The notes below the pieces were generated by a model. It worked only from the letters and a program-made list of their open reading frames with translations, made no database searches and was not told where the DNA came from. Shown in pieces: positions 11,995-33,816 of a stretch of DNA of 64,000 nucleotides. The DNA is taken from NCBI RefSeq assembly GCF_900155645.1, contig NZ_LT706985.1, positions 310,001 to 374,000 on the forward strand. Reading direction: 5' to 3'. Source of the DNA: Vaginimicrobium propionicum. Its GTDB lineage: Bacteria; Actinomycetota; Actinomycetes; Propionibacteriales; Propionibacteriaceae. The position numbers were made by a program, and so were the translations under genes. Each line of letters opens with the position of its first letter. The first letter of the stretch is position 1.

Positions 11995-12911
11995 CTGATT
12001 TTAAGTCTGGATTCGTTTGTTTCGTTGGCCGCCCCAATGCCGGAAAATCAACTTTGATTAACAAATTGGTTGGTCAAAAAGTAGCGATAACCTCATCAAA
12101 ACCGCAAACCACTAGGCACACTATTCGTGGGGTTGTTAATCGGGTAGGTGCCCAGATCGTAATAATTGATACCCCTGGCGTTTCAAAACCACGTTCCCTG
12201 CTACAAACTCGACTAAATGATCTGGTTTACGCCACTTGGTCGCAGGTCGACATTGTGTGCCTAGTGTTCCCGTCGAATGAGCACATTGGGCCTGGCGACG
12301 AGTACCTAGCTAATCAGCTGGCTAATTTGAAGCACCAGCAAAAAATCGTGGCGTTAGCTACCAAGACTGACCTTGTTAGTCCCCAGAGGCTGGCTAAACA
12401 TTTGCTAGAAATTTCAGATTTAGAGCAGCGACTAGAGATTCGATTCAGCCATATTGTTCCTTGTTCTGCGCTAGAAGGCGATCAACTCGACGATGTTGAA
12501 AATGTTTTGGTTTCACTATTGGAACCCGGCCCTAAGTTTTACCCTGACGATGACATCACTGATGAGGTAACGGAAACTTTGATTGCTGAGCTGATCCGCG
12601 AGGCAGCCCTAGAAGATTTACGCGAGGAATTGCCGCATTCCATAGCCGTCGAGGTTGACGAAATTTTGGAGCCTGAAGACGACTCTGATGATAAGGCCAG
12701 AATGGGTATTTTCGCGTCTATAGTGGTCGAACGCGATTCCCAAAAGGGCATCATTATCGGCAAAGGCGGTGCGCAGATTCGTCGGATTAGGTTGCGAGCC
12801 AGACGTCAAATACAGGCTTTACTAGGTACTAAGGTGCGCCTCGATTTGAAAGTAAAAGTGCTAAAAGATTGGCAGCGTAGCCCTAAATACCTGAAACGGT
12901 TAGGTTATTGA
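11991..12911 (+). CDS. era: GTPase Era
   Basis: GTP-dependent chaperone of 16S rRNA and 30S assembly, 306 residues. The GTPase domain has G1 GRPNAGKS (13-20), G3 DTPG and G4 TKTD. The C-terminal KH domain has IIGKGGAQIRRI, followed by the LDLKVKVLKDWQ segment typical of the Era C-terminus. It ends the phoH-ybeY-corC-era unit, overlapping corC as ATGA. The stop at 12911 is followed by the leuA leader region on the same strand. Confidence 0.97.
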   Translation: MTDFKSGFVCFVGRPNAGKSTLINKLVGQKVAITSSKPQTTRHTIRGVVNRVGAQIVIIDTPGVSKPRSLLQTRLNDLVYATWSQVDIVCLVFPSNEHIGPGDEYLANQLANLKHQQKIVALATKTDLVSPQRLAKHLLEISDLEQRLEIRFSHIVPCSALEGDQLDDVENVLVSLLEPGPKFYPDDDITDEVTETLIAELIREAALEDLREELPHSIAVEVDEILEPEDDSDDKARMGIFASIVVERDSQKGIIIGKGGAQIRRIRLRARRQIQALLGTKVRLDLKVKVLKDWQRSPKYLKRLGY

Positions 12912-12968
12912 TGTCCGACAGGTGAGCTTGGTTTAGGTTTTAGCTAAGTTCAGGGTTACCCTTATTTC

Positions 12969-13025
12969 GTGAGTCAACCAAGTGTCGTCCTAGTGCTCCT
13001 TGGTCGCCGCAACGAGACTTGCTAA
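12969..13025 (+). CDS. leuA leader peptide (18 residues, branched-chain-rich)
   Basis: A short reading frame, GTG to TAA, encodes MSQPSVVLVLLGRRNETC. Six of its residues (VVLVLL) are Val or Leu in an unbroken run, including Leu codons CTA, CTC and CTT. It lies 72 bases upstream of the leuA ATG. Such leader peptides let ribosome stalling at Leu codons report charged tRNA-Leu levels; leader-based control of leuA is known in actinobacteria. The RRNE codons form part of the left arm of the hairpin at 13007-13049, so translation and folding are physically linked. The ribosome site is weak (no clear AGGAG). Confidence 0.8.
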   Translation: MSQPSVVLVLLGRRNETC

Positions 13026-13067
13026 ATAAGCCAGTCCATCTCGTTGCGGAGTTTCTTCGTGTCTGGC
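13007..13067 (+). promoter_or_regulatory. leuA regulatory RNA: perfect hairpin with possible pseudoknot
   Basis: An 11-bp perfect inverted repeat (13007-13017 CCGCAACGAGA with 13039-13049 TCTCGTTGCGG) encloses a 21-base loop. The loop contains GCCAG (13030-13034), complementary to CTGGC at 13063-13067 just downstream, so an H-type pseudoknot can form. The left arm lies in the last codons of the leader peptide and the leader stop codon is in the loop. A ribosome stalled at the Leu codons would leave the stem free to form; one reaching the stop would cover it. AGTTTCTTCG follows the stem, so termination and ribosome-site control are both possible. The direction of control is inferred. Confidence 0.7.
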
Positions 13068-13097
13068 GTTTCAGCCAAAATAATCGAAAGAATAATT

Positions 13098-14846
13098 ATG
13101 TCTTCATATCCGAAACCGAATTTGATTGCTCATTCTTGTCCGTTGCAGCTTCCTTCTCCGATGCCAGTTGGTCGTTATCAACCTTTTAGACCACTGATTT
13201 TGCCTGATCGTACTTGGCCAGATAAGAAACTGGTCAAAGCGCCACGGTGGTTATCGACGGATTTACGAGACGGTAATCAGGCCTTGATTGATCCGATGAC
13301 GCCGGGACGTAAACGCGAAATGTTCGATCTTTTAGTCTCTATGGGATATAAGGAGATTGAGATTGGGTTCCCGTCGGCTTCACAAACAGAATACGATTTC
13401 GTCCGCTCGCTAATTGAAGAGGACGCTATCCCTGACGACGTGGTTATCTCGGTACTAACTCAGGCTCGTAAAGACTTGATTGAGCGTACTGCGCAATCTT
13501 TGGTTGGGGTCAAGCAGGCCACTATCCACATGTACAACGCTGTTGCTGACCTATTTCAGCGAGTAGTTTTCAAAAACACTAACGAAGAAACCAAGCAATT
13601 GGCTAAAGACGGTACCCGTTGGGTTATTGAGGCTGCTGAAAAATATTTGAAAGACAGCGAATTTGGCTATGAATATTCGCCTGAAATTTTTACTCAAGCC
13701 AATACCGATTTCGCTCTGGAAGTGTGTGAGGGAGTATTAGAGGTTTGGCAGCCCGAAGATGGACGCGAAATCATTTTGAACCTGCCAGCTACTGTCGAGA
13801 TGAGCACGCCAAATACTTATGCCGATCAGGTTGAGTATTTCTGCCGCAATATCTCTAACCGTGAAAATGTCTGTATTTCACTGCATCCTCACAACGACCG
13901 AGGGACTGCTGTTGCGGCCGCTGAGTTTGGGCAGATGGCTGGTGCAGACCGCGTTGAAGGTTGTCTATTCGGGCATGGCGAACGTACTGGAAACGTAGAT
14001 TTGGTAACTTTGGGGTTAAATCTTTATACCCAAGGTATTGACCCGAAAATTGATTTCTCTAATCTGGACGAGATTCGCCACACGGTTGAATATTGCACCG
14101 GTATGCCCGTCCATGACCGGCAGCCATATTCTGGTGACCTGGTTTACACTGCTTTCTCTGGATCCCATCAAGACGCCATCAAGAAAGGCTTGGAGGATTT
14201 GCAGCGTCAAGCCAGCAAGCAAGGCAAATCCATTCACGAAATCACTTGGCAAGCACCTTATTTGCCGATAGACCCCAACGATGTTGGTCGCAACTATGAA
14301 GCTGTCATAAGAGTAAATTCCCAGTCTGGCAAGGGCGGAATTGCTTACTTGATGAAGACAGATCATAAGCTGGATCTGCCGCGCCGGCTACAGATTGAGT
14401 TCAGTCGCGTAGTGCAAAAATATGCTGACGCTGGTAGCCAGGAAGTTACTAGCGCCCAGCTGTGGCAATATTTTGAGGCCGAATATTTGAGCGCGCAAGC
14501 TCCGTTACATGGGGTAGATTTCACGTTCACCAACGATCATGGTGTCTACAACATGACCTGTGAACTAACTGTCAATGATCAACTTAAGCGGGTTAAAGGT
14601 GCCGGCAATGGCCCGGTATCCGCATTCGCGAATGTCTTAGCCAATTTGGGATACCCGATTCATGTTATGGATTATGCGGAGCATGCAATGACCTCGGGTG
14701 GGGATTCTAAGGCTGCTGCCTACGTCGAATGCGAGGTTGGTAGCGGTGATAATGCCCAAATTCTGTGGGGTGTCGGAATTCACTCCGATATCACCACAGC
14801 TTCGCTACAAGCCTTAATCAGCGCCTGCAACAGAGCATTAAATTAA
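13098..14846 (+). CDS. leuA: 2-isopropylmalate synthase
   Basis: First committed step of leucine synthesis: condenses acetyl-CoA with 2-oxoisovalerate. About 582 residues, the long actinobacterial type. It has LSTDLRDGNQALIDPM (catalytic Arg/Asp region), SLHPHNDRGTAVAA and GCLFGHGERTGNVDL metal-site segments, plus a C-terminal leucine-binding regulatory domain. I chose ATG 13098 because GAAAG lies 7 bases upstream and the protein then starts MSSYPKPN; the upstream in-frame ATG at 13044 lies inside the regulatory RNA. Expression is probably controlled by the leader peptide and hairpin, and the enzyme by leucine feedback. It appears to be a single-gene unit, ending in a hairpin. Confidence 0.96.
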   Translation: MSSYPKPNLIAHSCPLQLPSPMPVGRYQPFRPLILPDRTWPDKKLVKAPRWLSTDLRDGNQALIDPMTPGRKREMFDLLVSMGYKEIEIGFPSASQTEYDFVRSLIEEDAIPDDVVISVLTQARKDLIERTAQSLVGVKQATIHMYNAVADLFQRVVFKNTNEETKQLAKDGTRWVIEAAEKYLKDSEFGYEYSPEIFTQANTDFALEVCEGVLEVWQPEDGREIILNLPATVEMSTPNTYADQVEYFCRNISNRENVCISLHPHNDRGTAVAAAEFGQMAGADRVEGCLFGHGERTGNVDLVTLGLNLYTQGIDPKIDFSNLDEIRHTVEYCTGMPVHDRQPYSGDLVYTAFSGSHQDAIKKGLEDLQRQASKQGKSIHEITWQAPYLPIDPNDVGRNYEAVIRVNSQSGKGGIAYLMKTDHKLDLPRRLQIEFSRVVQKYADAGSQEVTSAQLWQYFEAEYLSAQAPLHGVDFTFTNDHGVYNMTCELTVNDQLKRVKGAGNGPVSAFANVLANLGYPIHVMDYAEHAMTSGGDSKAAAYVECEVGSGDNAQILWGVGIHSDITTASLQALISACNRALN

Positions 14847-14854
14847 CTCTCTGA

Positions 14855-14891
14855 TCCACCCATATCCCACTAAGCTTGGGATATGGGTGGA
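14855..14891 (+). terminator. Long perfect hairpin after leuA
   Basis: A 15-bp perfect inverted repeat (14855-14869 and 14877-14891) has a 7-base loop CTAAGCT and starts 8 bases after the leuA stop. It is the natural terminator candidate for leuA, although no U-tract follows. The right arm contains the first ATG (14883) of the next gene's frame, so the same stem could also hide that start in a read-through transcript. Confidence 0.65.
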
Positions 14892-33714: not shown

Positions 33715-33816
33715 CAAGATTTTATGTTGACGGCTCAATGAGCTAATATCATCCCTCGGTTCCGGTTCACGTCCTGGCCGATTGGGCGACCCGGCGACCA
33801 AAGACAGGAGAAACTA

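Follow-up and report, generated by a model that had tools for sequence, protein, structure and literature searches.

Upstream of leuA in Vaginimicrobium propionicum lies a homolog of the LEU element of actinobacterial leuA genes, which we regard, with a probability of about 0.6, as a leucine-responsive leader sensed by the translating ribosome. Codon sensing by the translating ribosome is the reading favored by the sequence comparisons: the predicted leader ORF, its stop codon in the loop of a hairpin, the rare control codon, the stem, and the putative pseudoknot are all supported by comparison with relatives, which together build a strong sequence-based case that leucine codons would be sensed in this way. 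The output route to leuA is less certain than the sensing, and here control of the translation start is favored; we infer that stalling is the signal, which way the regulation runs, and that the output is translational rather than transcriptional.

According to the proposed mechanism, a ribosome would translate the short leader ORF on an mRNA that probably starts at or near the start codon. A shortage of charged leucyl-tRNA would make the ribosome stall on the leucine codons just upstream of the hairpin, so the hairpin and the pseudoknot could form and leuA would be translated. With ample leucine, the ribosome would reach the stop codon in the hairpin loop and cover the 5′ arm together with the pseudoknot strand of the loop, and for this reason both structures would be broken. 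Most relatives would then have two strands available for pairing with the leuA Shine–Dalgarno region (SD), namely the released 3′ arm and the leucine codons left behind by the ribosome, and this pairing could block the translation start; in the copy studied here, such blocking pairs are absent.

Organization of the Leader Region

All coordinates are counted within the window, which is the whole stretch of 64,000 nucleotides analyzed, and the leuA start is taken as the ATG at 13098 (Table 1). The ORF upstream of the leader ends at 12911, so that the intergenic region comprises positions 12912–13097.

Table 1. Features of the leuA leader region (positions within the window).
Feature	Position	Strand	Remarks
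Putative −10 box TACCCT	12957–12962	+	Predicted for the window; 6 nt upstream of the leader GTG
Leader ORF, 18 codons + TAA, VSQPSVVLVLLGRRNETC	12969–13025	+	GTG start at 12969
Control codons CTA GTG CTC CTT (Leu-Val-Leu-Leu)	12990–13001	+	Last codon CTT at 12999–13001
Hairpin 5′ arm CCGCAACGAGA, 11 bp	13007–13017	+	Inside the leader ORF; stem covariation
Leader stop codon TAA	13023–13025	+	Within the hairpin loop
Pseudoknot strand 1, GCCAG	13030–13034	+	In the loop, 4 nt past the stop codon
Hairpin 3′ arm TCTCGTTGCGG	13039–13049	+	Perfect 11-bp complement of 13007–13017
Strand paired with the leuA SD region	13051–13059	+	In the minimum-free-energy fold
Pseudoknot strand 2, CTGGC	13063–13067	+	Complements GCCAG
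Weak leuA SD region CGAAAGAAT	13085–13093	+	
leuA, 2-isopropylmalate synthase	13098–14846	+	TIGR00970, 826.5 bits versus cut-off 697.4

The original prediction had proposed a GTG-started frame of 18 codons in front of leuA with a VVLVLL run, the last codons of which form one arm of a perfect 11-bp hairpin, and all of this is found: the downstream gene is leuA according to TIGR00970, the run is present as a broken leucine run, and a hairpin of 11 perfect base pairs turns up in 0.08% (0.0008) of 5000 dinucleotide shuffles of the intergenic region. The five-base complementarity between the loop and a downstream strand, also predicted, exists as well; among 5000 shuffles of this region, 27.5% (0.28 by chance) contain a match of at least 5 nt between the loop and the downstream sequence, so the pseudoknot match is not significant from the window sequence alone, and it is the relatives that support a covarying pseudoknot. 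The RNA fold of positions 12969–13100 has a z of −3.54, with none of 200 shuffles being equally stable.

A sigma-70 scan of positions 12880–13140 gave 0 promoters, and no family of Rfam release 15 over the element reaches its gathering score. In the same region (12880–13140) there are 0 terminator-like sites, that is, the intrinsic terminator of a classical transcription attenuator is not found there, and attenuation by an intrinsic terminator was rejected on this ground.

Elsewhere in the window, perfect inverted repeats of at least 11 bp with short loops are present at 14855 (just past leuA), 52118, 55279, and 61927, and an L31-Actinobacteria ribosomal protein leader (RF03158, 51.5 bits) is located at 33756–33799 on the + strand.

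Distribution among Relatives

A leuA protein search gave matches in 144 of the 147 genomes sampled from the family, and 90 upstream regions were read. The element was found in 85 of these by a scan for the stem only and in 87 by the model R1, which was built from 65 of the family leaders and added the short-loop leaders L056 and L062; the three regions with no R1 match upstream of leuA are L019, L067, and L068. Beyond the family, R1 has matches in 145 of the 147 genomes of an order sample and in 233 of the 246 genomes of a class sample, and the phylum sample has matches in 13 of 149 genomes, 12 of those 13 belonging to the class. A second R1 match in the genome of the window (E = 1.65) was dropped, there being no hairpin-bearing leader in the sequence read at that place.

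According to the accessible text of the 2005 paper on the LEU element, P. acnes does not have it (PMC1262725). The contrary expectation, that relatives of P. acnes would carry the element, had a mixed outcome in the Cutibacterium records, all of them from relatives of C. acnes. The named species Cutibacterium porci, avidum, and modestum carry it. The element is missing from locus L067 of genome G042 (Cutibacterium genus group), where leuA comes close behind the preceding ORF, and this fits the 2005 statement. The ORF preceding leuA in this genome is presumably era-like.

From the class set, 25 loci were excluded by hand (failed scans, leuB or leuC copies, unclear starts), together with exact duplicates and with leaders starting at a distance above 95 nt; from the family, only L010 was excluded. 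The 105 “other class” leaders include L276, which precedes leuC and not leuA, and L221, which belongs to the family of the window. The sets comprise 190 leaders (85 + 105) for the control-codon counts, 189 for the swap tests, 188 for the masked folds, and 189 for the counts of starts and TANNNT.

Covariation of the Stem and the Pseudoknot

Covariation across relatives, whose absence the original prediction had named beforehand as refuting, was found for both the stem and the pseudoknot. For every one of the ten stem pairs in the model, pairing is retained in 129–131 of 131 cluster representatives. Pairs 5, 6, and 9 undergo exchanges between A-T, G-C, and G-T and remain paired in 131, 131, and 129 representatives versus 99, 115, and 115, respectively, in shuffles, and six of the ten pairs are hardly variable class-wide. 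The residues encoded by the 5′ arm vary (S/G/D/N; E/G) and the stem pairs are kept, which indicates that base pairing and not the peptide is conserved; a conserved peptide sequence in the arm was rejected for the same reason.

The pseudoknot pairing score in the 85 family relatives is 16.0 for own strands versus 13.3 for swapped strands, and none of 4000 permutations reaches the own value. When each of the 25 genera contributed a single leader, the largest p in 20 draws of 1000 permutations was 0.001, and a swap test across 131 class-wide clusters gives z = 11.7. In a MAFFT alignment, six of seven pseudoknot pairs change on both sides; 69% of the cells pair at fixed columns, a figure that we put down to a shifting register. 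When strands were exchanged between nearest neighbors only, the stem kept its signal at p = 0.002; that of the pseudoknot fell to p = 0.065 (41 better, 35 worse, 55 tied), and this drop means that the large z values are in part due to shared ancestry. The first stop codon of the leader frame falls in the hairpin loop, 0–12 nt past the 5′ arm, in 130 of the 131 representatives, the other frames having 4 of 131 each; among the family leaders found by the stem alone, the stop codon is in the loop in 84 of 85.

These comparisons also bear on the reading of the element as a chance intergenic hairpin, or as a conserved small protein in which selection on the coding sequence gives the appearance of structure. 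The chance rate of the five-base pseudoknot match in the window alone speaks for it, and it is contradicted by the class-wide conservation, by stem covariation accompanied by changed amino acids, and by the covariation of the pseudoknot, so that we hold it to be extremely improbable.

Minimal forms of the element (L054, L056, and L062; genus group g26) have a very short loop in which the stop codon comes right behind the 5′ arm and a pseudoknot would hardly fit, which suggests that the pseudoknot may be dispensable there.

Leader Start and Control Codons

The motif TANNNT lies 6–7 nt upstream of 142 of the 389 in-frame starts versus 1 of the 232 out-of-frame starts (189 leaders), and an in-frame start with TANNNT 6–8 nt upstream is present in 152 of 189 leaders. 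From this spacing, the leader is predicted to be leaderless, and a leaderless start is likewise predicted for the leader of the window from its sequence.

At least three Leu codons are found among the eight codons preceding the arm in 80 of the 85 family leaders. The last control Leu codon is CTT in 76 of the 85 family leaders, which were collected by the stem alone, and in 93 of the 105 others (169/190 in all), the Leu counts of the class set being biased by a model with Leu columns and by a scan demanding at least one Leu codon. As background, CTT accounts for 4.4% of 8124 Leu codons (400 kb, 20 family genomes). The first two Leu control codons are mostly CTC or CTG, and a general pyrimidine preference thus cannot account for CTT; a structural role for the U of CTT may be another cause of its conservation. 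In the window, CTT is kept as the last control codon, yet it is not a rare codon there (13.8%; the window has 49% GC), and Val occupies one of the usual Leu positions.

Copies Preceding leuB, leuC, and Other Genes

At least two R1 matches at E ≤ 0.01 were counted by hand in 65 of the 246 class genomes, some of them spurious, and no frequencies are claimed for the extra copies since they were mostly studied in genomes picked for having them. Hairpin copies with Val/Ile/Leu codons before leuB are seen at L230, L240, L310, L312, L313, L317, L319, L323, L331, and other loci. For leaders of this type, the downstream ORF is leuB in 10 of 10 tested; for LLL leaders in one family (L234, L236, L239, and L276), it is leuC in 3 of 3 tested (TIGR00170), with this second element immediately in front of the gene, the fourth locus, L276, containing only the start of leuC. 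Two tested ORFs behind extra copies are second leuA genes, and the remaining ones are named by the N-terminus alone, weak, or spurious-looking.

In 16 leuB-type leaders (ten with confirmed leuB), CTT makes up 56% of 25 Leu codons, GTA 62.5% of 24 Val codons, and ATT 44% of 16 Ile codons; in the ten leuB genes themselves, the corresponding values are 2.7%, 2.9%, and 1.9%. Thus, the leuB copies use rare Val/Ile/Leu codons, which means that the sensed codons follow the gene and the hairpin stays constant. We tentatively suggest, as an idea with something less than an even chance, that the hairpin–pseudoknot with its stop codon in the loop might serve throughout Actinomycetia as a portable output cassette, which is combined with one set of control codons or another (Leu at leuA and leuC; Val/Ile/Leu, often as rare codons, before leuB, where a small ORF comes next), and that at leuA it might act as a three-state switch. 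With no ribosome on the leader, the Leu codons would hide the SD; with a ribosome waiting at the stop codon, the 3′ arm would hide it; the SD would be open only with a ribosome stalled on the leucine codons.

The same data bear on a different proposal, in which the hairpin–pseudoknot is a protein-binding site or a metabolite-binding RNA and the leader codons are immaterial. The near-invariance of six of the ten stem pairs across the class could reflect recognition by such a regulator. In addition, the accessible text of the 2005 paper, which cites mutagenesis in S. coelicolor where leuA leader mutations had some effect, inconsistent with classical attenuation, reports elsewhere that mutations of the Leu codons do not influence regulation (PMC1262725). 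However, CTT as the last control codon (169/190) and the stop codon in the loop (130/131) are features of codon sensing, the identity of the codons changes with the gene, from Leu at leuA and leuC to rare Val/Ile/Leu at leuB, and the minimal forms L054, L056, and L062 keep the stem and the stop codon with a tiny loop and little pseudoknot room. A bound regulator is therefore quite unlikely, and codon sensing by the translating ribosome is preferred.

All 16 leuB loci carry, downstream of the element, a conserved small ORF whose end resembles MDRRDNGGETGH or SLDLRDGGGERPDDN and which was located by a motif-guided scan at offsets of 6–310 nt; the six tested reach no Pfam cut-off, and the four tested against NCBIfam have no match. 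In ten tested copies, leuB starts 141–450 nt past the element (ORF starts being assigned mechanically), a distance at which switching leuB directly through its SD would not be straightforward.

Some element-like leaders (L325, L328, and L335; e.g., MSWQKLLVTRRSGV and VARRLVLVVPRRSGV) precede short proteins that look like the allosteric domain of LeuA on its own, with PF08502 scores of 13.9, 26.3, and 23.8 bits, respectively (cut-off 24.9).

Pairing with the leuA SD and the Proposed Output Step

When leuA SDs were swapped between species, the 3′ arm with the adjoining loop end gave z = 9.2 and the Leu run, which corresponds to the base stem of 2005, z = 6.0; two control strands in the same test gave −2.5 and −2.5. 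One of these controls is the post:SD strand, which corresponds to 13051–13059, and its value shows that the pairing of this strand with the SD in the window is not general in relatives. Nearest-neighbor swaps gave p = 0.0004 for the Leu run and p = 0.079 for the 3′ arm with the loop end, and the 3′ arm alone gave no signal with the SD in this test (8 better, 17 worse, 106 tied; p = 0.38).

In masked-ribosome folding, the openness of the SD is 0.39 with a stalled ribosome, 0.33 with a ribosome at the stop codon, and 0.33 for the free leader, the stalled state being higher in 121 of 188 leaders, a slight change of the sign that the model predicts. Of the stalled-minus-stop difference of 0.061, 0.035 persists when foreign SDs are swapped in, which counts against the SD model. 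The values for the window (0.27 free, 0.37 stalled, 0.40 at the stop codon) also go against the model, as do those for L018 (0.38, 0.30, and 0.40, respectively). Compared with pooled gene starts, which are a poor control because they were chosen by best SD, the energy of the 3′-arm:SD pairing is not unusual (median percentile 0.35). The sequence AGCGAGGA is found in 25 of 85 leuA SDs versus 0 of 159, a contrast subject to the same gene-start caveat and to shared ancestry.

In the window itself, the SD pairs with the Leu codons at −2.2 kcal/mol (family mean −11.3) and with the 3′ arm at −1.9 kcal/mol, and the Leu-codon:SD base stem of the LEU element is not found in this copy. With both pairings nearly absent, the output step is a proposal for the class as a whole and is weakest for this copy. 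Accordingly, of the “complete leucine sensor” originally predicted, the leucine sensor is supported by the comparisons and the completeness is not, since the Leu-codon/SD stem is missing here.

Another possibility for the output, which seems to us rather doubtful, is that the ribosome senses the leucine codons and its position governs whether leuA transcription ends early by a Rho-dependent, non-intrinsic route, instead of governing access to the SD. It would agree with the window copy having no SD-blocking pairs, with the lack of a terminator-like site in the window region, and with the distance of 141–450 nt to leuB in ten tested copies. Moreover, a typical terminator is reported as missing for the S. 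lividans leuA leader (PMC8079986, accessible text), and Rho is raised for cys leaders in the accessible text of the 2005 paper (PMC1262725). If access to the SD were irrelevant, however, the species-specific match between the SD and two other strands, the Leu run and the region of the 3′ arm, would not be expected, and control of the translation start remains the favored route.

Comparison with Known Systems

In classical ribosome-mediated attenuators, such as trpL and leuL of enterobacteria, the leader peptide likewise contains control codons, and the possible pairings exclude one another. Unlike them, the element described here has no scored terminator hairpin with a T-run, and its stop codon lies in a pseudoknotted loop.

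The closest known system is the LEU element of actinobacterial leuA described by Seliverstov, Putzer, Gelfand, and Lyubetsky in 2005 (PMC1262725). As far as the accessible text of that paper goes, it describes the leader, the pseudoknot, and the Leu-codon:SD stem, which it counts as part of the element, and also an alternative hairpin built on that stem; the mechanism is left open, sensing of leucine codons is deemed unlikely, and a binding protein is favored, with helicases of the ML1624 type suggested and a small molecule thought unlikely (PMC1262725). The element in the window shares with this description the position upstream of an actinobacterial leuA, the leader ORF with Leu codons, and the pseudoknot, the last being likened by description, and it differs in having no Leu-codon:SD base stem; on account of this missing pairing, we file it as a variant of the LEU element. 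In contrast to the binding protein proposed in 2005, the comparative data presented here favor codon sensing.

In S. lividans, RNA-seq reports a leaderless LeuL1 MRFGLLLLSCRGEGL before leuA, with no typical terminator, listed as an attenuator (PMC8079986). LeuL1 shares the LLL..CRGE layout with many of the leaders analyzed here, whereas its description, in the accessible text, mentions neither a stop codon in the loop, nor a pseudoknot, nor a rare control codon; of the eight leader peptides named in that text, none is at leuB or leuC (PMC8079986). A literature search, partial in depth and with subscription journals mostly outside it, gave no account of the leuB and leuC copies or of the CTT rule. 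The ilvB leader of Corynebacterium diphtheriae, with the peptide MNIIRLVVITTRRLP, is likewise a leaderless branched-chain leader, likened here by the leader peptide alone (PMC5784534, accessible text). leuA leaders of Corynebacterium and Streptomyces appear in the accessible parts of RNA-seq papers.

Owing to the stop-in-loop rule, the nearly fixed CTT, and a choice of control codons that differs among leuA, leuC, and leuB, codon sensing can be put to a direct test across the class, which includes major producers of antibiotics and amino acids. In its plan, the element is a known regulatory type, in agreement with the original prediction that the class was probably not new (LEU element, PMC1262725), and it is a variant of that type by its missing SD base stem.
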